Assembly: GCA_017398805.1 (NCBI GenBank)
Contig: JAFQEZ010000067.1
Location: 1-42,935, forward strand
DNA: 42,935 nucleotides
Reading direction: 5' to 3'
Source: Bacteroidaceae bacterium
GTDB taxonomy: Bacteria; Bacteroidota; Bacteroidia; Bacteroidales; Bacteroidaceae
Each line of letters starts with the position of its first letter. Within the stretch, counting starts at the first letter, position 1. This document shows, piece by piece, positions 21,502-35,913 of this stretch. The notes below the pieces were generated by a model. That model did not search any database. It saw nothing but the letters and a program-made list of their open reading frames with translations, and was not told the DNA's origin. Position numbers and translations under genes: made by a program.

Positions 21502-24500
21502 ATGAAAAAATTCACACTATTGATTATCGCGCTGTTGTGCCTGCCAATGGCAATGCGCGCCGACGGTGACATCAACCTCACCCCCGTACCCATGAAGATG
21601 ACTAAGGGAAACGGCAGCCTGCTGTTGCCCGAGAGTTTCACCATTGCCACAGGAGAACTCAGCGATGAGAATGCAGCAGAGGCTGTAAAGTTCGCCACGC
21701 TTCTGAGCGAAGTCACAGGCTACAATATCGAAGTAAAGAAAGATGCCGATGATGCACTGATAACAATGTCAATGTACACAGGCAACGAAGAACTTGGCAT
21801 CGAGGGCTATACCCTTGACATCACTGCCGACGGCATTGCCATTGCTGCCAATGAGGCGAACGGTTTCTACTATGCTTTCCAGACTATCAAAAAAATACTC
21901 CCTGCGAATGTAATGGCAGAAGTAAAGGACAGTAAGGTTACCGAATACTCCATGCCCACAGTAAGCATAGTGGATGCTCCACGCTTCGAATACCGCGGAT
22001 TCATGCTCGATGTAAGCCGCCACTACTTCGGCATCGAACAGATAAAGCGCATGATTGACGTGATGTCATACTACAAGATGAACCGTTTCCACTGGCACCT
22101 TACCGACGACCAGGGTTGGCGTTTTGAGGTAAAGAAATATCCGTTGCTTACCACAGTAGGCGCCACACGCAACAACAACTGGGTAACCGACCGCGTATAT
22201 GGCGGATACTACACAGGCGAACCTTACGGACCATACTACTACACACAGGAGGAGTGCCGCGAGATTGTGGCATACGCTGCCGAGCGTCATATTGAGGTTG
22301 TACCCGAAGTTGAATTCCCCGGTCACTCATGTGCTGTGAACGCGGCATATCCCGAACTGAGCTGCAACCCCAACGGCGCACATAATGTGCAGGTAAACGG
22401 AGGCGTTTATGCTGATGTACTGAACGTAGCAAGCCCATTGGTAATGCAGTTCGCAAAGGATGTGCTGGATGAGATAATAGAAGTATTCCCCTACAGCCAG
22501 ATTCACATAGGCGGCGACGAGACTCCCACAAGCGCTTGGCAGAACAACGCCGAATGCCAGGCTATGATGCAGGAGCTCGGGCTTACCAATGTACGTCAGT
22601 TGCAGTCGCACTTCGTGCGCAAGTTATCGGATTATGTTACATCAAAGGAGGGCGACAAGAAGCGCACCGTAATCATGTGGAACGAGAGCCTAACTGCCGG
22701 CGGAACCGATGAGGAACTCATTAAAGGCACAGGCGGCACGATGATGTGCTGGGAGATAGGCAATGCACAGCCCTGTGCCTTGAAGGCTGCGCGGTACGGA
22801 ATGAAATCCATCATCACCACACAGGTTCCATATTACATCAACCGCCGCCAGAGCACCGATGCCGACGAACCTAAGGTTGCAGGTTACGGAACAGACAACG
22901 TAAAGGCTGTATATGACTATGTTCCCGTGCCGGCAAACGTTCCCACCGAACTGCACAAATATTATATTGGCGTACAGGGAACATTCTGGACAGAGCATGT
23001 GCAAGACAACAGCCTTCTCGAGTATCTTGCCCTGCCACGTCTTATGGCTATAGCCGAGACAGGCTGGACACCGGCAGCCAAGAAGAACTTCAGCGACTTC
23101 CAAGAGCGTATCACAAAGGACACCCTGCTGCTCAACTACAACAAATACGACTACGGCCGTCATTACATCCTCGGCAGCAACAGTGGCACAAGCGGCAAGG
23201 TAATGCCTACAGCATCGACCGATGAGAAGCAGACCTGGTACCGCATCGTGACAACTGCCACCGATGCACGCGCAGGCCGTTGCATACAGCTGTTGCGCGA
23301 AGGAATGAACATTGCCGACAAGACAGGCACTGCGCCTGCCGGCCGTCTGTGGAACAGCGAAATAATAGAAGATGAGAGCAACGAGGGCTACGACTACCAA
23401 TTGTGGGCATTCATGCAAGACCCCGACAACCCCGAGCGTTGGGCAATCGTGAACAAGGCAAAGCCTAACGGCTCTGTAAAGGGCACACCAACTGCCGAGA
23501 ACAATACAGGTCGCTGGGACTATGACGAAAACAACCGTCACTATGACTTTATCCTCGGCGACAAGGCATATGCACAGAACGGCAACAACTACAACTACAG
23601 CATACGCAGTCAGAAGGTATCCAACGGCAATATGTGCCTCAACTACGCAGGCCCCGGACAGAACCACTCCATAAACCTGTGGAGCGACCCTGCTGACGGC
23701 AACGGAGGAATATGGGAGTTCCGTCCTGTGGCAGCACAAGGCAGTGACAATGTAATCGACTACCCCGCCGCAGGCACAACCTACCGCATTGTCAACAACA
23801 CCGAGCGTTTCAAGGGATGGAGCCTCTACGACAATGGCGAGGCAACCGTTACAGCTGCACAGCAACAGTATGGTGCAGATTTATGGGAAATCACCGATGC
23901 CACCATAACCGATGCCGGGCAGACATTCAAACTGCGTAACGTGGCAACAGGCCGCTACATAAGCAGCACCAATGCTCCTGTTGCACTTGGCGAGAACGGC
24001 GTGACACTCACCAACGTATATAACACCGGAAGCGATGATTTCAGCATCATGGCAGGTGACGGTGCACTCTACCCCATCCCCGAGCGTGCAGCAACCAACC
24101 CCGGCACTTTAGGCAAAGGCGGTATATATCCGCAAGGCACCGGATGGGTATATGAGAAGGCATTCCTCGTCACTTTCGAGTGCCATGACCAAGAGGGCAA
24201 TCTGCTGCAGACACTCTACCGTTCGGTAGCCGAAGGCAATGAATTCACAGCCGACATCCCTCAAATCGCCAATTATGAGGCGACATCGCACACTGTTGAA
24301 AATGACGGCAACAACAAGATTGTCAAAGCAACATACAACCGTGTATCCTACAGCATAACCTACCGTTGCTACACAATGGACGGCAACCTCATCACAACAA
24401 TTGACGTACCTTGTAACATCGGTGACAGCTATTCTGTAGAGTATCCCAATGTAGAGTTCTATACATGCATTGGTAGCGATACCGAGGAGCGCACAATAAT

Positions 24501-25314
24501 AATCCCCACAGAAGATACCGTTATCGAAGTCTACTACGACTGCGAAGGCATAATGGGTGCGGCAGCCGTTGGAGATCCTGTCACAGAACTTGAAGGCGGA
24601 GCATCGTACCTTATATATAATGCCAAGAACGAGGCGAGCCGCAGCGGATTCCTCAGTGTAGGAGCCGTGGGCGAGGGCATCACAACCACCAACGGCATAA
24701 TAGAAGCAAGCCCAAGCTTCGTTTGGTACTTCGAGGGCGACGGCAACCGTTTCACAGTGATGAACAACTATGGCATATACATACCGCAGTTGCTGCGCGG
24801 TTCACTGGTAACAGGCGGTGATACCCCCGAGGAGTTCATCTTCACATTCGATGAAAGCACCGCCACTTGGAGTGTCAAGGGCACAAGCAACAACTACTAT
24901 TGGAACGGCAACGCCGACAACACCTTTACCGGTTGGGACGGCGGGCATCCCTTCATAATCTACCGTTACAAGCCGCACCCCTACTTCACAGTAACCTATA
25001 AGTGTGTAGACGGAGAGGGCAACGAACTTGCAAGCGGCACACGATACATTAAGGGAGGTGACCAGTTCGCAATGCTTACCCCGATATTCGAGGGCTACAG
25101 TTTCAAGGAGAGCAATGCAGTATATGAGGAACTTGCACGCGTGAGCAAGAACATAGAGATAACACTCACCTACACAAACGGCGAGACAGGAGTTGTCGAG
25201 GTGAAAGGTGAAAACGGAAAGATGAAAGGTATTTACGACCTGCAGGGTAGAAAGATAGAGAGCCCCACAAAGGGGATCTATATCATAAACGGCAGAAAGA
25301 TTCTTATCAAATAA
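21502..25314 (+). CDS. Secreted GH20 beta-N-acetylhexosaminidase with C-terminal modules
   Basis: This 1270-residue exo-enzyme should release terminal beta-linked GlcNAc or GalNAc from glycans. Residues 1-20 are a signal peptide. A GH20b domain (about 25-155) precedes the catalytic barrel (about 160-540), with RGFMLDVSRHYF, HWHLTDDQGWR (197-207) and the catalytic pair D339-E340 in HIGGDETP. The C-terminal half holds two trefoil-like regions (about 570-730 and 755-870), three MucBP-like beta repeats (from about 890, 955 and 1165) and an intervening 1030-1150 module. The last 33 residues are the sorting tail KGIYDLQGRKIESPTKGIYI, also found in the sialidase. The tails are nearly identical at DNA level. 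Length is about twice that of a minimal GH20 enzyme. Confidence 0.95.
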   Translation: MKKFTLLIIALLCLPMAMRADGDINLTPVPMKMTKGNGSLLLPESFTIATGELSDENAAEAVKFATLLSEVTGYNIEVKKDADDALITMSMYTGNEELGIEGYTLDITADGIAIAANEANGFYYAFQTIKKILPANVMAEVKDSKVTEYSMPTVSIVDAPRFEYRGFMLDVSRHYFGIEQIKRMIDVMSYYKMNRFHWHLTDDQGWRFEVKKYPLLTTVGATRNNNWVTDRVYGGYYTGEPYGPYYYTQEECREIVAYAAERHIEVVPEVEFPGHSCAVNAAYPELSCNPNGAHNVQVNGGVYADVLNVASPLVMQFAKDVLDEIIEVFPYSQIHIGGDETPTSAWQNNAECQAMMQELGLTNVRQLQSHFVRKLSDYVTSKEGDKKRTVIMWNESLTAGGTDEELIKGTGGTMMCWEIGNAQPCALKAARYGMKSIITTQVPYYINRRQSTDADEPKVAGYGTDNVKAVYDYVPVPANVPTELHKYYIGVQGTFWTEHVQDNSLLEYLALPRLMAIAETGWTPAAKKNFSDFQERITKDTLLLNYNKYDYGRHYILGSNSGTSGKVMPTASTDEKQTWYRIVTTATDARAGRCIQLLREGMNIADKTGTAPAGRLWNSEIIEDESNEGYDYQLWAFMQDPDNPERWAIVNKAKPNGSVKGTPTAENNTGRWDYDENNRHYDFILGDKAYAQNGNNYNYSIRSQKVSNGNMCLNYAGPGQNHSINLWSDPADGNGGIWEFRPVAAQGSDNVIDYPAAGTTYRIVNNTERFKGWSLYDNGEATVTAAQQQYGADLWEITDATITDAGQTFKLRNVATGRYISSTNAPVALGENGVTLTNVYNTGSDDFSIMAGDGALYPIPERAATNPGTLGKGGIYPQGTGWVYEKAFLVTFECHDQEGNLLQTLYRSVAEGNEFTADIPQIANYEATSHTVENDGNNKIVKATYNRVSYSITYRCYTMDGNLITTIDVPCNIGDSYSVEYPNVEFYTCIGSDTEERTIIIPTEDTVIEVYYDCEGIMGAAAVGDPVTELEGGASYLIYNAKNEASRSGFLSVGAVGEGITTTNGIIEASPSFVWYFEGDGNRFTVMNNYGIYIPQLLRGSLVTGGDTPEEFIFTFDESTATWSVKGTSNNYYWNGNADNTFTGWDGGHPFIIYRYKPHPYFTVTYKCVDGEGNELASGTRYIKGGDQFAMLTPIFEGYSFKESNAVYEELARVSKNIEITLTYTNGETGVVEVKGENGKMKGIYDLQGRKIESPTKGIYIINGRKILIK

Positions 25315-25327
25315 CACCTAAACAAGC

Positions 25328-25359
25328 AGTAGCGCACTTTTTTGGTGCGCTACTTTTTT
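25328..25359 (+). terminator. Terminator of the hexosaminidase gene
   Basis: AGTAGCGCAC pairs with GTGCGCTACT, followed by seven T. The -33 element of the next gene's promoter lies in its loop. Confidence 0.9.
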
Positions 25360-25372
25360 TGTGTTATCTTCG
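25341..25372 (+). promoter_or_regulatory. Promoter of the TSCPD gene
   Basis: TTTG, 20 bases, TATCTTCG. An in-frame ATG at 25361 precedes the -7 box, so translation should begin at 25397. Confidence 0.55.
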
Positions 25373-25396
25373 CATAAAATTAGCAAAACAGAGAAT

Positions 25397-25651
25397 ATGA
25401 AAACAGTAACCTACCAGACAACGGGCACATGTTCACGCTTCATAGAGCTGACAGGCGACAACGGCAAAATTGTAGATGTAAAGTTCTACGGTGGCTGCCA
25501 CGGCAACCTGCAAGGTATCAGCAGCCTTGTAAAGGGCATGAAGTACGAAGATGTAATCGCACGCCTCAATGGTATAAGCTGCAACGGCAAGCCAACCTCC
25601 TGCCCCGACCAGCTTTGCCGCGCAATAGAGCAGCTGATGAGCGAAGAGTAA
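25397..25651 (+). CDS. TSCPD-domain small protein (TIGR03905 type)
   Basis: The 84-residue protein carries the motif that names the family, TSCPDQL, near its end, plus conserved cysteines in GTCSRFIEL, GGCHGNLQGI and ISCNG. Related domains occur at the C-terminus of some vitamin B12-dependent ribonucleotide reductases; the free-standing form is uncharacterised and the cysteines suggest metal binding. The start at MKTVTYQTTGTC is preferred over the upstream ATG at 25361 because of the promoter. It is likely transcribed alone. Confidence 0.85.
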   Translation: MKTVTYQTTGTCSRFIELTGDNGKIVDVKFYGGCHGNLQGISSLVKGMKYEDVIARLNGISCNGKPTSCPDQLCRAIEQLMSEE

Positions 25652-25679
25652 TGCAACAATATTTTAAAAGGGCATTTTT

Positions 25680-25770
25680 TAGAAAAGGGCACTAAGGAAC
25701 ATTAAGGGCACTAATGTTTTTCCTTTAGAACCATTAGAGCCCTTAGCCCCCTTAAACCCCTTAATCAAAA
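25680..25770. repeat. TTAG-decamer inverted repeat, empty copy
   Basis: CTAAGGAACATTAAGG and AAGGGCACTAATG at the left are mirrored by CATTAGAGCCCTT at the right. This is the same pattern that flanks the four-helix-bundle gene at 30101, here with no gene between the arms. Confidence 0.7.
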
Positions 25771-25772
25771 CT

Positions 25773-26183
25773 ATGGCAAAAATTAAAAACCCCGAATACA
25801 AACAAAAGAACAAAGCCTTCATGCAGGCACTGCGTGACGGCAAAGAGGAGTTGCTGGAGATTTCCCAAGGCGTGCTTGTGAAGATACTCAAGAGCGGCGA
25901 AGGAGAGCGTAGCCCACGTCAAGGAAATGTCGTTACCGTGAACTACAAGGGAAGTCTCATCAACGGCAAGATTTTTGACAGCAGTTACGAACGCGGATAC
26001 CCCGAGGCATTCCGTCTGAGCGACCTCATCGTCGGTTGGCAGATTGCCCTGACACAGATGCACATAGGCGACCATTGGATAGTATACATCCCATGGGAAG
26101 CTGGTTATGGCAGCCGCGCCAACGGCAATATCCCGGCATACTCCACCCTCATCTTTGAAATGGAATTGGTTGCAATAATGTAA
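25773..26183 (+). CDS. FKBP-type peptidyl-prolyl isomerase
   Basis: This 136-residue protein is a single FKBP domain that should catalyse proline isomerisation or act as a chaperone. Typical stretches are VTVNYKGSLINGKIFDSSYERG, PEAFRLSDLIVGWQIALTQM, GDHWIVYIPWEAGYG and IPAYSTLIFEMELV. Unlike many Bacteroidetes FKBPs it has no signal peptide or lipobox, so it is probably cytoplasmic. The Asp and aromatic pocket residues look conserved. The REP array begins 23 bases after its stop. Confidence 0.93.
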   Translation: MAKIKNPEYKQKNKAFMQALRDGKEELLEISQGVLVKILKSGEGERSPRQGNVVTVNYKGSLINGKIFDSSYERGYPEAFRLSDLIVGWQIALTQMHIGDHWIVYIPWEAGYGSRANGNIPAYSTLIFEMELVAIM

Positions 26184-26206
26184 CGCCATGGACGAAAACG
26201 GCAACC

Positions 26207-26455
26207 GTAGGGGCATCCCTTGTGGGTGCCCAATAGAGGAAGCCGCAACCGTAGGGGCATCCCTTGTGGGTGCCCAACAGAGGAAGCCGCAACCGTAGGG
26301 GCATCCCTTGTGGGTGCCCAACAGAGGAAACCGCAGCCGTAGGGGCATCCCTTGTGGGTGCCCAACAGAGGAAGCCGCAACCGTAGGGGCAGACCGACGT
26401 GTCTGCCCAAATGAAAACAGCATGATTGAGGGCGAACACACCGGTTCGCCCCTAC
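26207..26455. repeat. REP array: five 44-bp tandem units plus one inverted hairpin
   Basis: Units start at 26207, 26251, 26295, 26339 and 26383, exactly 44 bases apart. Four carry the hairpin GGGCATCCC/GGGTGCCC (one bulged T). The fifth has GGGCAGAC/GTCTGCCC in the same place. An inverted unit with GGGCGAAC/GTTCGCCC ends the array at 26430-26455. The regions between hairpins are also repeated, so this is not a CRISPR array. Confidence 0.9.
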
Positions 26456-26489
26456 AATAAATACAACAAAAAAACAGCACAATACCACA

Positions 26490-27032
26490 ATGTACGACCC
26501 CGAGCAACATCACCGCCGTTCAATACGACTGAAGGAGTACGACTATGCATCAGAGGGATTATACTTTGTAACCATTTGTGTACACGAATACCGCCCGATG
26601 CTCGGAACCGTCATTGACGGGACAATGCATCTCAACGATGCAGGAAGAATGGTAAAAGAATGGTATTACCGCTGCGCAGAGCACTTCCCCGACATTGAGT
26701 GCATGGAAATGGTAATTATGCCCAATCATTTCCACTGCATTTGGCGCAATGTAGGGGCAGACCGATGTGTCTGCCCAACAGAGGACCACAGGAATTCGGG
26801 CGAACACACCGGTTCGCCCCTACATCGTGTGGTACAATGGTTTAAGACTATGACCACCAACGGTTACATCCATGGTGTGAAACAATTTGGATGGATACCG
26901 TTCAACAAACACCTTTGGCAACGCAACTATTACGAACACATAATACGCAACCAACAATCATTTGAAGAAATTGTTGCATATATAATTGAGAACCCGATAC
27001 ATTGGAAAAATGACAAACTGTATATTGAATGA
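26490..27032 (+). CDS. REP-associated tyrosine transposase (RAYT)
   Basis: This 180-residue protein is a single-strand DNA transposase-like enzyme of the Y1/HUH (IS200-related) superfamily. The HUH pair is H80 and H82 in MPNHFHCIW, and the catalytic tyrosine is Y147 or Y148 in NYYEHIIRN. The N-terminal YFVTICVHEY and the C-terminal IIENPIHW are also typical. RAYTs are domesticated transposases that act on REP hairpins; such hairpins lie directly upstream here. Residues 88 to about 112 are encoded by two inverted REP hairpins (26751-26776 and 26798-26823), which keep the frame open. It belongs to the REPs and not to its neighbours. Confidence 0.92.
   Translation: MYDPEQHHRRSIRLKEYDYASEGLYFVTICVHEYRPMLGTVIDGTMHLNDAGRMVKEWYYRCAEHFPDIECMEMVIMPNHFHCIWRNVGADRCVCPTEDHRNSGEHTGSPLHRVVQWFKTMTTNGYIHGVKQFGWIPFNKHLWQRNYYEHIIRNQQSFEEIVAYIIENPIHWKNDKLYIE
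26751..26823. repeat. Two inverted REP hairpins inside the RAYT gene
   Basis: GGGCAGAC/GTCTGCCC and, in the other orientation, GGGCGAAC/GTTCGCCC stand 21 bases apart within the coding sequence. Confidence 0.9.
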
Positions 27033-27039
27033 TGACGTA

Positions 27040-27385
27040 TACCCCTCTGCCTGCGGCACCTCCCCTGTAAATACCCCTCACCGCTTTGCGGAGCTCCCCT
27101 AAAACAGGGGAGCAATTCTGGAGTTAGCTGTCACATAGTGACTGAGAGGTACAGGGGAGGATGTGGTTACCTTTGAGCCTGCGATGCCGTCTCCTACCTT
27201 GGCTGCACTCGCGGTGTAATTACAAGCAAGCTTGCATTGCGCTCATTTGCACAAGTTTTCACTTTTCACTTTGACAACACCGTCTAATCGCAACCCGCAG
27301 GGCGTGACCATGCCACGCTGCCTGCGACTAATTGCTGCCGGTGTTGCCGAAGTCTGCAACTTTCATCTTTCCACTTTCAGCTTTC
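27040..27385. repeat. Intergenic repeat mosaic before the MATE gene
   Basis: 27040-27170 belongs to the CTGCGGCACCTCCCCTGT / AGGGGAGCAATTCTGG family also present at 41570-41815. 27270-27385 (TTTGACAACACCGTCTAATC and following) recurs at 41276-41444 with an insertion. No gene is seen between 27033 and 27395. Confidence 0.7.
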
Positions 27386-27395
27386 CGTTTTAAAA

Positions 27396-28718
27396 ATGAA
27401 ACCATACTCAGCACATTATAAGGAACTGTTCCGTTTGGGACTGCCTATCATCATTGGACAGATAGGCATCATCTTTGTATCCTTTGCCGACACTTTCATG
27501 GTGGGACAATATGGCACAGCTGACCTCGGTGCTGCAAGTTTCGTGAACAACCTGTTCAACCTGGCAATAATATTCGCCATGGGATTCTCCTATGGACTCA
27601 CCCCTATCGTGGGCAGGCTGTTCGGCAGCGGAAACAAAAGAGGTATCGGGTCGACACTGAGAAATGCCCTGCTCGCAAACAGCGCCATCGCACTTTTGCT
27701 TTTTATCGTAATGGGTATACTCTACCTGAACATAGGCAATTTGGGACAACCCGAAGAGCTGCTTGAACTGATGCGACCCTACTACATTGTATTGCTGATG
27801 TCGCTCCCCTTCATAATGATCTTCAACGCCTTCAAGCAGTTTGCCGACGGTATCACCGACACAAAGACACCGATGTGGATAATGCTCTTCGGCAATGTGC
27901 TGAACATCATAGGCAACTACATGCTCATATTCGGCAAATGGGGCGCTCCGGAACTTGGTCTTTTAGGTGCAGGAATATCCACACTTATTTCACGCATGGC
28001 AATGCTCGCAGTCTTTATGCTCATATTCTTCCGCAGCAAGCGCTACAGGGAATATGCCCAAGGCTTCATGCGCGGAAAGATTACAGGCCGCGATCAGAAG
28101 GAACTGTTCGGCATTGGCATGCCTGTTGCCCTGCAAATGGGTATGGAAACGGCATCGTTCAGCCTTGCCACCATCATGGTCGGCTGGTTGGGTACAGCTG
28201 CGCTTGCGGCACACCAGATAATGTGCACCGTGGGACAATTGGGATTCATGATGTACTACGGCATGGCTGCAGCCGTGGCAGTAAAGACAAGCAACTACAG
28301 CGGTACGGGCGAGCGTGACGACATACGCCGATCGGCAAACGCAGGATTCCACCTCATACTTGCCATGGCACTCTTTGCCTCTGTTGCCATATATTTTGCA
28401 AGGAACAGCATAGGAAGCATCTTCACCAATGATGCCCAGGTATCGCTGCTTGTTGCACAACTTGCAGTGCCTTTTATCCTGTACCAGTTCGGTGACGGTC
28501 TCCAATGCAACTTCTCCAATGCCCTGCGCGGAATATCGGACGTAAAGCCCGTGATGCTCTATGCCTTCATCGCATACTTCGTGATATCACTGCCTGCAGG
28601 CTACCTGTTTGGTTTTGTATTCGACTGGGGACTACCCGGTGTGTGGATGTCATTCCCGTTCGGCCTCACCAGCGCCGGAGTGATGTTCTACCTAAGATTC
28701 CGTTCAAGAGTGAGGTAA
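27396..28718 (+). CDS. MATE-family efflux transporter
   Basis: The 440-residue inner-membrane protein has about twelve helices in two halves, as in NorM/DinF-type sodium- or proton-driven exporters. Family stretches include LGLPIIIGQIGIIFVSFADTFMVG at the start, TPIVGRLFGSG, NVLNIIGNYMLIFG and GIGMPVALQMGMETASF opening the second half. The substrate cannot be predicted. No promoter box was found; the upstream region is all repeats. The stop is followed within 65 bases by prmA, but a promoter before prmA suggests separate transcription. Confidence 0.93.
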   Translation: MKPYSAHYKELFRLGLPIIIGQIGIIFVSFADTFMVGQYGTADLGAASFVNNLFNLAIIFAMGFSYGLTPIVGRLFGSGNKRGIGSTLRNALLANSAIALLLFIVMGILYLNIGNLGQPEELLELMRPYYIVLLMSLPFIMIFNAFKQFADGITDTKTPMWIMLFGNVLNIIGNYMLIFGKWGAPELGLLGAGISTLISRMAMLAVFMLIFFRSKRYREYAQGFMRGKITGRDQKELFGIGMPVALQMGMETASFSLATIMVGWLGTAALAAHQIMCTVGQLGFMMYYGMAAAVAVKTSNYSGTGERDDIRRSANAGFHLILAMALFASVAIYFARNSIGSIFTNDAQVSLLVAQLAVPFILYQFGDGLQCNFSNALRGISDVKPVMLYAFIAYFVISLPAGYLFGFVFDWGLPGVWMSFPFGLTSAGVMFYLRFRSRVR

Positions 28719-28722
28719 TAGG

Positions 28723-28754
28723 CTTGCCATGCTCGCATAAATGTATTACATTCG
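28723..28754 (+). promoter_or_regulatory. Promoter of prmA
   Basis: CTTG, 20 bases, TACATTCG (28747-28754). It overlaps an upstream in-frame ATG at 28741, which therefore cannot be the start. Confidence 0.55.
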
Positions 28755-28782
28755 CAAAATAAAACAGGAAAACCATATTGTC

Positions 28783-29631
28783 ATGAATGACTACACAAGA
28801 GTAAAATTCACAGTAGTGCCTAACGAAGAGGCAGCTACCGATGTCCTTGCAGCACTGCTTGCCGAGGTTGGTTTCGAGAGTTTCGTACAGGAAGAGAACG
28901 GAATGTCGGCGTATGTTCCACAGGCTCTTTACAATGCCGAAAACATCGCGACCGTTGTCGAGGAGTTCCCCTTGCAGGGATTTGCAATAACATACGAGAG
29001 CGAGATCATCGAGGGCGAGGACTGGAATGCCGAGTGGGAGAAGAACTATTTCCAGCCCATCGTGCTTGGCGAAGAGTGCGTTATACACAGCACCTTTCAC
29101 AAGGATGTCCCCAAGGCACGTTACGACATACTCATCGACCCCAAGATGGCTTTCGGCACAGGCTACCACCAGACCACATGTCACATGCTTCGTGCAATAC
29201 TTGCGAGCGACATGACCGGCAAGAGCGTCCTTGACATGGGATGCGGTACAGCCCTGCTTGCCATCCTTGCACGCAAACACGGTGCAACAGATGTCGTTGC
29301 AATCGACATCGACGAGTTCGCATATGAGAATGCCAAGGAAAACGTCGTACTCAACGGCACGCCCGACATCGAAGTGCGCCTGGGTGGTGCCGAGGCAATA
29401 AAGGAAAGCGACAGCTTTGATTTTGTCATAGCCAACATCAACCGCAACATCCTGCTCATGGACATGAAGAACTATGTGCGTTGCATGCACAAAGGGTCAC
29501 AGATATTCATCAGCGGATTCTACACCGATGACATGGATGTCCTCAAGGAAGAAGCAGCACGCCACGGCCTACAATACATCGACTACGCCGAGGACAACCG
29601 CTGGGCAATGATGAGATTCACGAAAAGATGA
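28783..29631 (+). CDS. prmA: Ribosomal protein L11 methyltransferase
   Basis: PrmA trimethylates ribosomal protein L11 using S-adenosylmethionine. The 282-residue protein has the short N-terminal L11-recognition domain, then the linker with FGTGYHQTT and the methyltransferase motifs VLDMGCGTALLAI, VVAIDIDEFA and FDFVIANINRNIL. Length is normal for the Bacteroidetes form. The start at MNDYTRVKF is chosen because the promoter lies between it and the ATG at 28741. Confidence 0.93.
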   Translation: MNDYTRVKFTVVPNEEAATDVLAALLAEVGFESFVQEENGMSAYVPQALYNAENIATVVEEFPLQGFAITYESEIIEGEDWNAEWEKNYFQPIVLGEECVIHSTFHKDVPKARYDILIDPKMAFGTGYHQTTCHMLRAILASDMTGKSVLDMGCGTALLAILARKHGATDVVAIDIDEFAYENAKENVVLNGTPDIEVRLGGAEAIKESDSFDFVIANINRNILLMDMKNYVRCMHKGSQIFISGFYTDDMDVLKEEAARHGLQYIDYAEDNRWAMMRFTKR

Positions 29632-29696
29632 AAGTTGAAAACTGAAAACGAAGTTTCGATAACACGAGCAGTGATAGAACACTTATTTTTAAAAAC

Positions 29697-29987
29697 ATGA
29701 ACGCAGAGACTTTATACACCATTTGCGGCTATGCTGCAAGCATTTTCCTCATTTTGGGTTACTTGCCCCAAGCCATTGAAACCATACGCACACGCAACAC
29801 CGACGGTATTGCCCTGCCCACATTCCTTATGATGGCAGCCGGTTCTGTTGCTTTCGTTATCCAATCCCTTTGCCACGAAGCCGGCATCATCTGGTCAATG
29901 CTCATCACCAATGCCGTAACATTTATATGCAGTTGCATAGTCTTTGGAATTAAAATCAATAACGACTACTTTAAAAAGAAAGAGTAA
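29697..29987 (+). CDS. SemiSWEET-type PQ-loop transporter (copy A)
   Basis: The 96-residue membrane protein has three helices and the PQ motif GYLPQAIETIRTRNTDGIALP, typical of bacterial SemiSWEETs, which dimerise to move sugars across the membrane. A second gene at 30775-31065 on the opposite strand encodes a protein about four-fifths identical. The two genes converge on the four-helix-bundle gene at 30101. The transported sugar is unknown. Confidence 0.88.
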   Translation: MNAETLYTICGYAASIFLILGYLPQAIETIRTRNTDGIALPTFLMMAAGSVAFVIQSLCHEAGIIWSMLITNAVTFICSCIVFGIKINNDYFKKKE

Positions 29988-30016
29988 AGAGGCTTTGTAG
30001 TTAAAAGAAAAAGGAG

Positions 30017-30062
30017 AACTAAAGGGGCTAAGGAACATTAAGGGGACTAATGTTTTCCCTTG
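30017..30062. repeat. TTAG-decamer element, left arm
   Basis: CTAAGGAACATTAAGG is followed by AAGGGGACTAATGTTTT. Its inverted counterpart, AAGGGGGCTAATGTTTT on the minus strand, begins the right arm at 30651. Confidence 0.75.
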
Positions 30063-30100
30063 GCAACTTTATTATATTTTATTGCTTAAAACATACAGTA

Positions 30101-30652
30101 ATGACAACTTTAATTCCTAATCGTGGTAATTACCGTAACTTGCTTTGCTACAAGAAGGCTGAGGCAATTTATGATATTACCTGTCATTTCGTTGAGCGTT
30201 TTTTGCATCGTGGCGACCGCACAATTGACCAAATGGTGCAGGCAGCACGCAGTGGAAAGCAGAACATTGTAGAGGGATATACAGCTGGCGCTACATCGGT
30301 TGAAACGGAATTAAAATTGGTGAATGTTGCAAAAAGCAGCATGCAAGAACTTTTGGTTGACTACGAAGACTATTTACGCACGCATGGCCTGCATCGTTGG
30401 GAAAAACATTCAAGGGAACTTATTTGTGCACAACAACTTGGACGCGAGCATAATGATACCGCTTTTTGGATGAATATTGTACGTACAAGGAACGATGAGG
30501 TTATTGCAAACATTGCAATTGTGCTCATCTATCAGACCGATTATTTACTTTACAAGTATCTGCAGACTGCCGGCGAGCGATTTATAAACGAAGGTGGTTT
30601 TCGTGAAAGGCTGACCCGTGAGAGAATAAAAGCAAGGAACAGCGAAAAGTAA
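30101..30652 (+). CDS. Four-helix-bundle suffix-domain protein
   Basis: This 183-residue protein, starting MTTLIPNRGNYRNLL, is all-helical and basic. It fits the family of four-helix-bundle proteins related to those encoded in 23S rRNA intervening sequences, with the longer C-terminal suffix seen in Bacteroidales. Landmarks are YKKAEAIYDITCHFVERFL, RTIDQMVQAARSGKQNI and EGYTAGATSVETELKL. The surface is rich in lysine and arginine, consistent with nucleic-acid binding, but no activity is known. The gene sits between inverted repeat arms and looks like the cargo or driver of that element. An ATG at 30050 lies inside the left arm, so 30101 is preferred. Confidence 0.8.
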   Translation: MTTLIPNRGNYRNLLCYKKAEAIYDITCHFVERFLHRGDRTIDQMVQAARSGKQNIVEGYTAGATSVETELKLVNVAKSSMQELLVDYEDYLRTHGLHRWEKHSRELICAQQLGREHNDTAFWMNIVRTRNDEVIANIAIVLIYQTDYLLYKYLQTAGERFINEGGFRERLTRERIKARNSEK

Positions 30653-30780
30653 AAAAACATTAGCCCCCTTATTTCTTTAGTGTTCATTAGTAGCCCTTAG
30701 TGCTCCTTAGTGCTCCTTAGTGCTCCTTAGTGTTCCTTAGTTTCCTTAGTTTCCTTAATTTCCTTTAGTACTCTTTAGTC
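30651..30780. repeat. TTAG-decamer element, right arm
   Basis: After AAAAAACATTAGCCCCCTT come seven consecutive decamers, each ending in TTAG, from 30671 to 30740 (three are TGCTCCTTAG). Less regular TTAG units follow up to the end of the inverted SemiSWEET gene. Confidence 0.8.
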
Positions 30781-31065
30781 TTTCTTTCTGACGTAGTCAT
30801 TGTGAATTTTTATTGCAAAGACTATACAACTGCAACTGCAGGTTACGGCATTAGTTATTACCATAGACCATATTATGCCGTCTTTGTGCAACAGGCCTTG
30901 AATGACAAATGCCAGTGCACCAATCGCCATCATCAGAAATGAGGGAAGCGCAATGCCGTCGGTATTGCGTGTGCGTATGGTCTCAATGGCTTGGGGCAAG
31001 TAACCCAAAATGAGGAAAATGCTTGCGACATATCCACATATTGTGTAGAGCGTCTCTTGTTCCAT
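30775..31065 (-). CDS. SemiSWEET-type PQ-loop transporter (copy B)
   Basis: The 96-residue paralogue of the gene at 29697 is in inverted orientation, with the same GYLPQAIETIRTRNTDGIALP block. Over the first 45 codons the two genes are almost identical at DNA level, whereas the last third has diverged. Both keep three helices and the PQ motif, so both may be active. SemiSWEETs work as dimers, and the pair could form hetero-dimers. Its stop codon overlaps the end of the TTAG-decamer array. Confidence 0.88.
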   Translation of the reverse strand: MEQETLYTICGYVASIFLILGYLPQAIETIRTRNTDGIALPSFLMMAIGALAFVIQGLLHKDGIIWSMVITNAVTCSCSCIVFAIKIHNDYVRKKD

Positions 31066-31212
31066 ATCCTTTTTATTTTTAAAAACGTACTACAGTGTTT
31101 TTGTTCAACCATTTTAATGACATTAAAGAAGATTTGCACCCTCACCAGCCCTTATTTCTTCACTTTTACCATTTTTAACCATATCAGGCACATTAAAAAA
31201 GAGGCATATCCA

Positions 31213-31220
31213 TATATTTG
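31213..31220 (+). promoter_or_regulatory. -7 box of the tandem SGNH esterase gene
   Basis: TATATTTG lies 39 bases before the ATG. No -33 TTTG is present at standard spacing. Confidence 0.45.
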
Positions 31221-31258
31221 CAGGAGAAGATAAAACAAACCTTAAACAACTTTATAGA

Positions 31259-33946
31259 ATGAAAAGATTTATACTCTCTCTGCTTATTATGGTTGCAACA
31301 TTACAGTCATCGGCTCAAGACCCGTTCCGCAACCACAGATATGATGTGTTCAAAGTGCTTCCGGTCAAGAACGAGAATATTGTCTTCATTGGAAACAGTA
31401 TCACCAACATGCACGAATGGTGGGAGGCATTCGGCAGCAACCACAATATAATAAACCGCGGCGTATGGGGTACATTCATAAACGAGACAGTTGACAACAT
31501 TGAGGCCATTGCTGTTGGAAAACCACAAAAGGTATTCATCATGGTTGGCACCAACGATCTTGGAAAAAACGGCAGCAGAAACATCGATAACATAATAGCA
31601 AGCACACGTACAATTGTAGAACGCTTCAAGCGAGTGTCTCCCAATACAGAAATCCACATTCAAAGCATACTGCCCAGCGTATATAACAGAGAGTTGTCAC
31701 AACTCGAGGAGACCAACAGGCGGTTGAAAGCATTGTGCGATGAAGAAGAGATTACATACATAGACCTTTGGGATGACCTTTACAGTTTGACCCAAGACTA
31801 CACACATACGCTTGACGGCCTGCACCTCAAGGCATCGGGTTACCAAATTTGGACAAAAAAGATAGAACAGTACATAGGTTGCAGCACGGTATACCCCGAT
31901 GATTGCGCCGAGAGGCAAAGTACAAACGGCATATCAAACGCCGCATACGGAATGCGTGCGACAATATTCAGCACTCTTCCTGTCAGCGACAGTGACATAC
32001 TGATAATAGGCGACGAAATGATTCACGGAGGAGAGTGGCACGAACTCCTGCAAAGCGGCAAAGTCAAGAGCCGCGGCAGCGGTTGGGGATACGCAAGCCC
32101 CGGCATCGATGTAATACAGAAAGAGATACCGCTTATATTGAACAATAATAGCAGCCCATCGAAAGTGCTTTTGTATGCAGGTGCGGCTGAACTCAACGGC
32201 ACTGCAACACTTGACAACATTGAAACAGCATACAGGAATATCATAGACAAAATAAAGGAACTTTCACCCGATACCGAAATTCTGCTTATGAGCCTGTTGC
32301 CGACCGGCAATTCAAGCACCAATACCGGACGAATTGTACCGTTCAACAACAGGTTGCAGAAAATAGCCGAGGAGGATACACAGATAGGGTTTATCGACAT
32401 ATACAGCAGCCTTGCCAACGGCAATGTCGCCGACAGCAGGTACATCAGCAACAATTACCTGATGGGAATGGGATATGTCAAGGTTGCGCAGAAGATTGCG
32501 GAAGCCATTGACGATGCAGACATCGTTGCAATAACCGACGAGGAGGCCGAAAATAATTACAGGACATTCCGGCTTCGCAGCACACTTGGCAATGCCATTG
32601 CAACCGCCACGGCGCTCAAAGAGGGCGACGGAGTGGGCGAATACACGACAGAGAGCCTTTCCGAACTTCAGAGAATAACCGACGAGGCATACACACTGCT
32701 GCAAACAGGGGGAACCGAAGAAGAGTTCCAGGCGATGGGCGAGAGAATTGCCACAGCTGTAAATTCTGCGCTCGCAAACATAAACAAGCCATCGGCAAGC
32801 AACGACCGGAATGAGTATTGGTACAAGATGTATACTCCCAACCGCAACAACCGCTATCTATCGTCGAACGGAGACGGCAATGCTGCCACTGGCAAAGAGG
32901 AGAGCAACCGGGCTGACAGTCAATGGAAATTCGCGGAACGCACCGACGGAACATTTAACATTATAAACCGTGCCGACGGAACATATCTCAACCCGGTTGC
33001 AGCACACAACACATCCATCACCACAACATCGGCAGAACCGGCCCGTGGCTGGGAACTCAGTTACAGCAACACACCGGGGCTGTTCATAATAAACAGTGGA
33101 ACAACGCAGTTGAACCAGACACAAAGCCACTTAGAGTGGAAGATATACAATTGGAGTACAAAAGCCGACGGACAGGACCGCAACGACACCGGTTGCCAAT
33201 ACAAAATAGAACTTGTAACCGAAGAACCCGAAGAGATAATCCCCGAAGACTTTTTACACTTCTCGTTCTCACGCGGCACATCGCTCACAAACAGTTATGT
33301 CACAATCACCGATGAAACAGGCAACAACACAAGCGGAGTTAATGCAAGCATAACTGCAGGCGGAGCCACGGGGTGGCTGGCAAGCAACAAAGCTGCTGCC
33401 GACAGTATACTATGCCTGAACATAAACACCAATGGAACAACAGCCGACACCCCCATAACCTACACATTGTCAATAGACGGCATTGACAACAACTTCAGCA
33501 TCAACAGCATAACATTCAGCGGAGTGGCGCTCAACTATGCCGGCAATTGGCAAGGAGCCACAGAGACACGCCATTGCAACTTTGAGTGCAGCTATGGCAA
33601 CGACAACAACCTTAAGGCACTCGCACCAATTAAAGACGAAAGCATAATGGTAGCCTCGGGAGCGCTCAAAGATGTAACCTTTGAAACAGAGGGCATAATG
33701 CCTTCCAACGGCAAGCTCAACATAAAACTCAACATATACAAAGGAACAAACAACCTTGGATGTTTCTATGGCCTGACTGGCATAACATTAAGAGGAGTCG
33801 ATACTGAGATGCCAGAGACAGGAGTTGACGAGATAACAGAGAACAGAGTACAAAGTACAGCTATTTACGACCTTACAGGCCGCAAGGTAGAGAACCCCAC
33901 AAAGGGTATATATATTATTGACAGCAAAAAAACACTGATAAAATAA
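31259..33946 (+). CDS. Secreted tandem-SGNH esterase, sialidase-less relative of the gene at 417
   Basis: The 895-residue protein repeats the N-terminal plan of the sialidase at 417. It has a signal peptide (1-19), an active-looking SGNH domain (S47, N99, D186/H189), a second SGNH domain with GDE at 251-253 and no DxxH, and a helical stretch (about 425-500). A trefoil-like module (about 515-655) follows. It then has a beta module (about 665-850) ending in KGTNNLGCFYGLTGITL where the sialidase has its catalytic part. The sorting tail closes it. Carbohydrate deacetylation is the best guess, possibly of sialic acid. Expression as a single gene is likely. Confidence 0.85.
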   Translation: MKRFILSLLIMVATLQSSAQDPFRNHRYDVFKVLPVKNENIVFIGNSITNMHEWWEAFGSNHNIINRGVWGTFINETVDNIEAIAVGKPQKVFIMVGTNDLGKNGSRNIDNIIASTRTIVERFKRVSPNTEIHIQSILPSVYNRELSQLEETNRRLKALCDEEEITYIDLWDDLYSLTQDYTHTLDGLHLKASGYQIWTKKIEQYIGCSTVYPDDCAERQSTNGISNAAYGMRATIFSTLPVSDSDILIIGDEMIHGGEWHELLQSGKVKSRGSGWGYASPGIDVIQKEIPLILNNNSSPSKVLLYAGAAELNGTATLDNIETAYRNIIDKIKELSPDTEILLMSLLPTGNSSTNTGRIVPFNNRLQKIAEEDTQIGFIDIYSSLANGNVADSRYISNNYLMGMGYVKVAQKIAEAIDDADIVAITDEEAENNYRTFRLRSTLGNAIATATALKEGDGVGEYTTESLSELQRITDEAYTLLQTGGTEEEFQAMGERIATAVNSALANINKPSASNDRNEYWYKMYTPNRNNRYLSSNGDGNAATGKEESNRADSQWKFAERTDGTFNIINRADGTYLNPVAAHNTSITTTSAEPARGWELSYSNTPGLFIINSGTTQLNQTQSHLEWKIYNWSTKADGQDRNDTGCQYKIELVTEEPEEIIPEDFLHFSFSRGTSLTNSYVTITDETGNNTSGVNASITAGGATGWLASNKAAADSILCLNINTNGTTADTPITYTLSIDGIDNNFSINSITFSGVALNYAGNWQGATETRHCNFECSYGNDNNLKALAPIKDESIMVASGALKDVTFETEGIMPSNGKLNIKLNIYKGTNNLGCFYGLTGITLRGVDTEMPETGVDEITENRVQSTAIYDLTGRKVENPTKGIYIIDSKKTLIK

Positions 33947-34009
33947 ACACCTGAGCGCTTGATTCAAAAAAGGCACATTTTTTTTAAAAAAAGGTTTTTT
34001 TTAACAAAG

Positions 34010-34085
34010 GCGCTAAGGAACATTAAGGAACACTAAGGGCGCTAATGTTTTTGCCTTTAGAACCGTTAGCGCCTTTAGAGCCTTT
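34010..34085. repeat. TTAG-decamer inverted repeat, empty copy
   Basis: GGCGCTAAGGAACATTAAGG...GGGCGCTAATG faces CGTTAGCGCC. Both the GCGC core and its complement differ from the copy at 25680, where the core is GGGCAC/GAGCCC, so the pairing is kept while the sequence changes. Confidence 0.7.
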
Positions 34086-34142
34086 TTATTTTCTTTTAAC
34101 ATTATTTAACTATTAGGGGGGGGTAAAAAGTTAACTTATTAT

Positions 34143-34150
34143 TACTTTTG
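34143..34150 (+). promoter_or_regulatory. -7 box of the gene at 34198
   Basis: TACTTTTG, 48 bases before the ATG. Confidence 0.45.
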
Positions 34151-34197
34151 CACAAAATAGCAAAAAGCGAATTTTTAATAAGTTAACGTATTATATT

Positions 34198-35913
34198 ATG
34201 AGAAAATTTTTACTTTCAATGGCGCTTGTGTTCTGCACAGCAGGAGCAATGGCGCAAGGAACAATCGAACTGACATTTAATAAAACAGATGCAACAAATG
34301 CAACTGTTGAAGTTGCCAGCGATGCAATTGATGTCGCAGGTATTACAGCGACTGTGACCTCTAATTATAATTGGAAAACACTGACCGCCAATAACACGAC
34401 ATTCCCGACAGCGAGCATGCTTTGCCCTGATAAAAATACAACAGATATGACATCCGGGAATGAAGCAGTCTTTACAATAACACTAAACAATGTTCCGGCA
34501 AACTATTCTTTCAAGAACACAACTTTTACAAGTGCGGCTTTAACCGGTGGAGGTGCATTCCAAGAGCACACTGAGACACGACATGTGGATTTTACTCTTA
34601 AGAAAGGAGAAGAGATACTTGGCACAAAGACCGATGAAAGCATTATGGTAACTTCACATAATGGAACTGCGGTTAACATTGAATTCGAGATGAATACTGC
34701 TTATAAAGCAGAAGATGGTACATTAACTCTTACACTGACCTTAGCAAAAGGTACAAACAATAATGGCTGTTTCTATGGCTTGACAAAAATCACATTTGAA
34801 ACTATAACCACTCTTTACCATTTAAGCGATAAAAACCTTACTGCAAGCGACTTGATGTCAAAGACAGAGCCTACATACATTGCAATGAAAAACCTGTCAA
34901 GAAGAAATCCTGATTGGTATGCAGGCACAAGTAGCAGTGCATTGATTACAGATGCAAATATTTTTGTATGGGAACCGACTGATGATGGTTTCCGTTTGAA
35001 GAATTTGGAAGGACAATACATACAGAGCGGCAATGAGAATGTAAACATCAGCTTTGGAACAGTTGATAACGCTGCTGTATTCACAGTTGTGAAGCCATAT
35101 GTTGGTGGTAGTGAAACAGCAGCAATGGACCACGACAATGATTCAAATCCTTATATCACAAGTGACCAGGACGAGAACCTTGTACGCTTTGTAAACGAAA
35201 AAGATGTTTGGATCAATGTCCAGAACACCGACGGTACACCAGGTACTCCAAAATACAATAAAGGAAAACGCGGCTGGACAATCCAGTATGTATATGAGGT
35301 GACAATGGTTGAAGCTTATGACGTTGAAATCACTGATGCTAAATATGCCACATTCTATGCTGTTAGCGAGTCTACAGCGCCCGAAGGTGTTGAAGTATAT
35401 TATGTGACCAACGAAGGTGTCGAAAGCGAAAAAATAAACCTTACAAAAATTGAAAACAGAATAATCCCTGCAAACACGGCTGTAATCATTTATTCTGAAA
35501 CTGCTGGAAATTATGAGTTTAGCGCTTCAACAACAAATGCTCCTGCAATAAGCGACAACCTTCTTAAGGGCACACCAATAAGTACAAACATCACTGAAGA
35601 AGCTTATGTTCTTGGAAATAAAGATGGAGTTGGACTTTACAAGGCTATAACAAAAGATGTGAGCACTAGTGGTGGCACAAAGAAGGTATTCCTCAACAAC
35701 GCCAACAAGGCATACTTGCCGGCAAGCGCAGTTCCTGCTGCAGCACAGGCAAGCAATGGTTTCCGCTTCGGCGAGGGCACAACAGGCATTGATGAGATAA
35801 CAGAGAACAGAGTACAGAGTACAGTTATCTACGACCTTACAGGCCGCCGTGTAGAGGCTATCACCGCTCCTGGTATTTATATTGTAGGTGGCAAAAAGGT
35901 TTTGGTTAAATGA
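34198..35913 (+). CDS. Secreted modular surface protein, unknown function
   Basis: The 571-residue protein has a signal peptide (1-19, AMA-Q) and an N-terminal beta module (about 22-205) ending KGTNNNGCFYGLTKITF. This is the same module found C-terminally in the protein at 31259 and N-terminally in that at 36753. A trefoil-like region (about 205-370, with DANIFVWEPTDDGFRLKNLEGQY-type text) and a further beta domain (about 375-530) follow. The tail TGIDEITENRVQSTVIYDLTG...GGKKVLVK is a sorting signal. No catalytic motif was recognised. Glycan or matrix binding is an inference from the modules. AT content is somewhat higher than in neighbouring genes. Confidence 0.7.
   Translation: MRKFLLSMALVFCTAGAMAQGTIELTFNKTDATNATVEVASDAIDVAGITATVTSNYNWKTLTANNTTFPTASMLCPDKNTTDMTSGNEAVFTITLNNVPANYSFKNTTFTSAALTGGGAFQEHTETRHVDFTLKKGEEILGTKTDESIMVTSHNGTAVNIEFEMNTAYKAEDGTLTLTLTLAKGTNNNGCFYGLTKITFETITTLYHLSDKNLTASDLMSKTEPTYIAMKNLSRRNPDWYAGTSSSALITDANIFVWEPTDDGFRLKNLEGQYIQSGNENVNISFGTVDNAAVFTVVKPYVGGSETAAMDHDNDSNPYITSDQDENLVRFVNEKDVWINVQNTDGTPGTPKYNKGKRGWTIQYVYEVTMVEAYDVEITDAKYATFYAVSESTAPEGVEVYYVTNEGVESEKINLTKIENRIIPANTAVIIYSETAGNYEFSASTTNAPAISDNLLKGTPISTNITEEAYVLGNKDGVGLYKAITKDVSTSGGTKKVFLNNANKAYLPASAVPAAAQASNGFRFGEGTTGIDEITENRVQSTVIYDLTGRRVEAITAPGIYIVGGKKVLVK

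Follow-up and report, generated by a model that had tools for sequence, protein, structure and literature searches.

What kind of genetic unit places a small gene between inverted repeats, when the same repeats also occur close by, joined to each other with no gene between them? The question is raised by a 42,935-nucleotide stretch of a Bacteroidaceae genome (NCBI GenBank assembly GCA_017398805.1, contig JAFQEZ010000067.1), hereafter the window, in which a gene starting at position 30101 encodes a four-helix-bundle protein. We found the association of such genes with repeat arrays to be wider than the single Bacteroidales case in which a preliminary description of the window had seen it, and to follow a period rule not noted earlier: as judged from the sequences flanking the genes, the repeat pitch is 7 or 8 bp for plain four-helix proteins and 9 or 10 bp for proteins with a suffix domain. 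We propose a small mobile element, in which a four-helix gene of the S23 type lies within inverted arrays of fixed pitch, gene-less copies keep the arrays, and a ring of the protein would read one repeat unit per subunit. We regard this proposal as evenly poised between right and wrong.

The window element and its protein

The gene copy has two arms, both degenerate arrays with units of about 10 bp: YTAAGGNNNN in the left arm and its reverse complement in the right one (Table 1). The left arm is represented by AAGGGGACTAATGTTTT at 30040-30056, and the 18 nucleotides at 30039-30056 are 94% complementary to 30654-30671. The right arm is far longer than the left. The gene starts with the Met at 30101, as in its relatives; the start at 30050 given by the open reading frame (ORF) listing falls inside the arm. 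The preliminary description was right that inverted arms frame the gene and that two further places have joined arms without one. The framing repeat held as an inverted match and failed as a single conserved sequence, the arms being degenerate arrays of unequal lengths.

Periods of 9 and 10 bp mix among the window arrays. The hairpin folds of the stretches containing the solo copies are more stable than shuffled sequences (z = -3.5 and -3.6), and CTAAGGAACATTAAGG, allowing up to 3 mismatches, matches the window 10 times, compared with a mean of 0.31 and a maximum of 2 in 100 shuffles. The arms also pair with each other in the predicted fold of the whole-element RNA. An Rfam scan of 25000-35000 gave no match at the gathering score, and a known RNA family was rejected as the identity of the element. 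No transposase is encoded between the window arms, where no search aimed specifically at transposases was made. The four-helix gene sits between two SemiSWEET genes, not inside a 23S rRNA gene.

Table 1. Features of the element and its gene-less copies in the window.
Feature	Position	Strand	Description
Left (upstream) array	30017..30057	+	YTAAGG-type units, pitch ~10 bp; ends approximate
Four-helix-bundle gene, 183 aa, TIGR04258 suffix family	30101..30652	+	Profile match and predicted structure
Right (downstream) array	30653..30779	-	Inverted CCTTAR at 10-bp pitch; best period 10, score 42 (L029); ends approximate
Gene-less copy 1, left and right arms joined, hairpin	25684..25763	.	Best single period 9; orthologous junction filled or not among relatives
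Gene-less copy 2, left and right arms joined, hairpin	34009..34085	.	Inverted-repeat pairing and fold

The window protein matches TIGR04258 (four helix bundle suffix domain), a relative of the S23/intervening-sequence proteins, with 64.6 bits (cut-off 40). Its score against TIGR02436 is barely above the cut-off (25.5 bits; cut-off 24), and that against PF05635 is under it (22.6 bits; cut-off 33.8). Among solved structures, the predicted model (predicted local distance difference test, pLDDT, 94.6) comes closest to the S23-family structures 2gsc and 2rld, which have the same four-helix fold, followed by Avd of a diversity-generating retroelement. The suffix profile matched no PDB sequence at E up to 1, so the structural link depends on the predicted model. 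The function of the S23p family is not known according to one account (PMC4990558). Plain four-helix genes are common, being present in 85 of 118 genomes sampled from the phylum (E <= 1e-8), with up to 15 matches per genome. A virus-borne origin was rejected: 77 IMG/VR stretches matched the peptide pattern and 0 encoded a relative, in one scan with the suffix query only.

Repeat pitch and protein subfamily

The period of each locus was called with a simple self-match score as the best of 5 to 13 bp across two 200-bp flanks. The suffix set had 100 loci, 20 from the window genome and its relatives and 80 from named genomes, the latter being the best 80 of at least 570 confirmed loci and therefore those nearest to the query; their record titles name Bacteroidota groups, Planctomycetes, Verrucomicrobia, Kiritimatiellae, Chlorobi, and Ignavibacteria. 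The plain set had 111 TIGR02436 four-helix loci, which are high-scoring matches, several of them from the same genera. Fragment loci (L039, L040, and L043) were excluded from flank scoring, and the locus set contains some redundancy (L037 is identical to L074; L034/L035 and L089/L091 are close copies).

The best period was 9 or 10 bp at 89 of the 100 suffix loci, compared with 365 of 1349 control windows of the same loci, and 7 or 8 bp at 101 of the 111 plain loci, compared with 202 of 1349. At scores of at least 20, reached by 56 of the 1349 controls, the separation is nearly complete: 72 of 74 suffix loci have 9 or 10 bp and 57 of 58 plain loci 7 or 8 bp. Arrays are strongly enriched beside the genes, so the first outcome that the preliminary description would have taken as a refutation, arms no nearer to such genes than expected, did not occur. 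A further plain set consisted of 14 plasmid loci (12 cyanobacterial, one from Azospirillum, one from Gemmatimonadota), picked from 29 records with a plain gene before their flanks were seen. All 14 followed the plain rule, with a period of 7 bp in 11 and 8 bp in 3, two of them at weak scores (L305, 15.0; L298, 19.6).

Among representatives with less than 60% protein identity, the plain rule held in 64 of 71, and the suffix set shrank to 12, of which 9 had 9 or 10 bp. On the protein tree, period switches were rarer than in all 200 shuffles, inside each family. Both classes coexist in the window genome, where one plain gene (L001) is accompanied by about 21 heptamers and the window gene by decamers.

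Unit sequences and orientation of the arrays

The sequence of the repeat unit is private to each gene, even within one genome. A fixed conserved terminal repeat is ruled out, as the units vary between genes and lineages while the period is constant. At plain loci, the downstream array often reverse-complements the upstream array of the same gene (60 of 110 cases, score at least 14). Direct matches number 10 of 110, and pairing of arrays across different loci gave 7 of 110. At suffix loci, the two sides matched in inverted orientation in 42 of 95 cases and in direct orientation in 36, the control pairs giving 1 and 15 of 830; each side often contains both orientations, that is, one hairpin per side. 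Plain arrays also have a sense. AG exceeds CT in 45 of 57 upstream arrays, with the reverse in 2, and AG is in phase in 36 of 56 arrays. Suffix arrays have no AG-type sense, and TA is their most frequent phased pair on both sides.

Filled, array-only and bare junctions

The junction following the PrmA-like and SemiSWEET genes was read in 20 genomes of the genus (20 of 30 loci from 40 matched genomes, about 1.5 kb downstream of each): the gene is present in 7, an array only in 3, and the junction is bare in 10. A profile search over the 30 loci found the gene in the same 7. Three of the seven copies have one orientation and four the opposite one, one of these four being broken. The TSCPD-FKBP junction, where the first solo copy resides, is also patchy among relatives; the frame was found in 17 of 24 loci, themselves drawn from the 30, with a TAAGG-type array in 7, an array of another unit in 3, a bare junction in 6, and an unclear one in 1. 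The three arrays of a different unit (L319, L327, and L331) have a 9-bp pitch, so that the unit at one site can change while the pitch class stays. In other genomes, flank reading placed the gene after a uvrA-like gene (L034-L038) or beside restriction-type genes (L023).

Four filled plasmid junctions have insert-free relatives that are 88-93% identical. They are the cas10-cmr3 interval of Picosynechococcus PCC 7003 (L303), compared with PCC 7002 (L308); an operon of a Nostoc plasmid (L304, compared with L313 and L314); an Aulosira site (L302, compared with L311 and L312); and a TraM junction (L296, compared with L310, where 52 different bases stand in its place). At the site of L296, a fifth plasmid (L309) carries 260 bp with arms of this kind but without the gene. 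The inserts span both arrays and lie at a stop/start junction or, in L302, just within the end of the upstream gene. L315, with a different small ORF at the L304 junction, was left out of the count. The genus junction and the four plasmid sites lend good support to the earlier suggestion of a small mobile element that exists both with its gene and empty.

Where both neighbours run in the same direction, the gene shares their sense in 78 cases versus 8 at plain loci and in 33 versus 6 at suffix loci; neighbour strand was assigned by a longest-ORF rule, which gave no neighbour for 11 of the 111 plain and 36 of the 100 suffix loci. Such a bias would fit insertion at the RNA level and equally selection against antisense insertion, and ordinary operon genes show it too.

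Some plain four-helix genes of cyanobacterial plasmids lie within CRISPR operons (L294, L301, and L303), in cas6-cas4 and cas10-cmr3 intervals. In the window, the SemiSWEET genes bracketing the four-helix gene (29697-29987 and 30775-31065) are inverted and 79% complementary over 287 nucleotides, and another genome of the genus (G020) has the same layout. The element may have helped to create this inverted duplication.

Distribution across the genus

Exact matches to the two-unit pattern YTAAGGNNNNYTAAGG number 45 in the window genome, compared with 1 for the reversed pattern. Merging within 150 bp gives 27 sites, each arm of the gene copy being counted separately, and the same genome has one TIGR04258 match. 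Over the 37 genomes of the genus, 18 have TIGR04258 matches, one of them (G004) solely as fragments below the cut-off, and 16 have at least five pattern matches. Gene and repeats occur together in 13 genomes, the gene only in 5, repeats only in 3, and neither in 16 (Fisher p = 0.0008, which is a guide only, the genomes being related and incomplete). The five gene-bearing genomes with few TAAGG matches carry types with differently reading flanks, so that a single pattern understates the link between repeats and gene.

In G004, the gene copy (L040, L043, and L186) is split into two fragments in different frames, and the arrays remain. On contig C72 of the window genome, at about 23470-25470 (L015 and L018), an array with its flank recurs in inverted orientation about 1.9 kb away, with other genes in between. 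The window also has 44-bp tandem units with GTAGGGGCATCCCTTGTGGGTGCCC and palindromes ending CGCCCCTACA at 26152-26456 and 26749-26825, which are unlike the arrays studied here.

Proposed mechanism and alternatives

At the sequence level, the proposed mobile element is founded on the layout, the period rule, the complementarity of each plain element's own arms, the patchy presence, the filled and empty junctions, and insertion as a unit. The ring, its binding to the arrays, and the mode of movement are what we infer from these. The protein would assemble into a ring of five, as its solved relatives do, and each subunit would bind one repeat unit of the array, either in the transcript or in single-stranded DNA. 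The protein would thereby set the pitch, the extra helices of the suffix family adding about two nucleotides. RNA would be the simplest target of such a ring, given the importance of strand sense in plain elements and the fact that Avd, the nearest relative of known work, is in an RNA-protein complex. The complementary arrays could pair into a stem that delimits the element, much like the one in rRNA intervening sequences with S23 genes, and the protein complex, aided by a further enzyme, could place copies at gene junctions. Gene-less copies may have moved in trans or been left behind by deletion, and trans action of the window protein on the solo copies is plausible. A reverse transcriptase as the obligate partner is not supported by its distribution in the genus, where matches occur in 9 of the 18 gene-bearing genomes and in 5 of the 19 others.

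Several observations weigh against the proposed element. Array binding is so far conjectural, and private units mean that the protein must either recognise sequence loosely or coevolve with its array. No movement enzyme emerges from the reverse transcriptase counts, and the target duplications that the preliminary description proposed to look for did not appear as a constant feature of the four plasmid junctions (TTCTA stands on both sides in L304 only). A very stable whole-element RNA was rejected (z = -1.06, with 2 of 20 shuffles equally or more stable), and the structural match to Avd falls in a range that helical bundles reach through arrangement alone. Scores lie below 20 at 26 of the 100 suffix loci and at 53 of the 111 plain ones, another period is best at 11 of the 100 and 10 of the 111, and an array length near five is in part a product of the score threshold. 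Suffix arrays are direct about as often as inverted between sides. Finally, 13 of the 16 repeat-rich genomes have a TIGR04258 match and 3 do not (G011, G033, and G034; 83, 91, and 84% complete); the second refuting outcome named in the preliminary description, genomes rich in arms that have no such gene, was thus seen in a minority.

The protein might instead be a helper or passenger of a mobile element whose hairpin arms are acted on by an unrelated enzyme, a transposase or reverse transcriptase, as in miniature inverted-repeat transposable elements (MITEs) and REPINs. The excess of gene-less copies over the gene in the window genome (27 sites, one gene) and the gene-less version at the L296 junction are in line with this, as is the lack of any known recombinase in the element, where transposases were not searched for. 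We nevertheless consider it unlikely, since a mere passenger would not explain why the period tracks the protein subfamily, and the genomes of the genus, incomplete as they are, indicate no requirement for reverse transcriptases.

Regulation offers another account, in which the protein controls transcription or translation by binding arrays beside its own gene and others scattered elsewhere, and insertions are rare side effects. The arrays are indeed close to start and stop codons (medians 32 bp upstream and 10-12 bp downstream), plain upstream arrays have their AG-type sense, and MacGregor proposed post-transcriptional binding sites for TAACTGA heptamers (PMC4679880). However, gene and arrays insert as a unit at junctions, each gene has private units, and one genome may hold several four-helix genes, which together make this account improbable. 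Ordinary slippage, by which short tandem repeats grow in intergenic DNA with four-helix genes merely among them, could draw on heptamer arrays described without a known cause in several bacteria (PMC4692102 and PMC4679880) and on high-scoring 7-bp arrays in 25 of the 1349 control windows, but it is strongly disfavoured, and very improbable, in view of the enrichment beside genes, the split between 7/8 and 9/10 bp, the complementarity to each gene's own other arm, and the persistence of the plain rule below 60% protein identity.

Comparison with known systems

The closest known system is the intervening sequence (IVS) of 23S rRNA genes with its S23p/IVP gene, which shares the protein family, the position of the gene between terminal inverted repeats, and the character of a small selfish element. 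Tandem heptamers precede the gene in the IVS of Coxiella (PMC4990558). Unlike the copies described here, which lie between protein genes, IVSs reside inside 23S rRNA genes and are excised by RNase III; dispersed gene-less copies and a repeat pitch tied to the protein subfamily also set the present system apart. In a stricter reading, it could be an IVS variant.

REPIN/RAYT systems and MITEs consist of short gene-less inverted copies, and their defining transposase is RAYT, of the Y1 HUH type, or a relative of insertion sequence enzymes. The present system is similar in having many short inverted gene-less copies and one gene elsewhere as the candidate actor, and different in that its arms are tandem arrays of private units. 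Unlike in diversity-generating retroelements, the window contig (C64) has no reverse transcriptase match, the RVT_1 matches of the genome being on C92 and C94; no template/variable repeat was noted, and the Avd match is ambiguous. By analogy only, the trp RNA-binding attenuation protein (TRAP) would illustrate the same principle, a ring that recognises regularly spaced short motifs in RNA. TRAP has a different fold, 11 subunits, and a shorter pitch, and is a pure regulator.

The heptamers GGGAATC of Xanthomonas and GGGGAYT of Nostoc (PMC4692102) and TAACTGA of Beggiatoaceae and others (PMC4679880) likewise form dispersed intergenic 7-bp arrays of few units, often as inverted pairs in Xanthomonas, and look like the array half of the present system. 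In the parts available, these accounts explain them by G-quadruplexes or by a regulator of unknown identity and name no four-helix gene; the likeness to our arrays is one of description and is not drawn from those genomes. Tentatively, and with somewhat more doubt than belief, we suggest a new class of mobile element whose sole protein is a ring-forming four-helix bundle reading a fixed-pitch motif, each subunit taking one unit and the subfamily thereby fixing the repeat length at 7/8 or 9/10 bp, and which would also explain these heptamers and those before the S23 genes of IVSs.

To our knowledge, short tandem repeats with units of 7-10 bp are widespread and have no explanation. If the protein sets the repeat pitch, the function of S23p and the origin of short repeats become one question, and a mobile element carrying no known recombinase would be added to those described. 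Among the top matches in the open-access literature, none links such repeats to four-helix genes by title or abstract. The pairing of protein subfamily with repeat pitch, in a mobile unit that carries no recognised recombinase, matches no class known to us or listed among those top matches.
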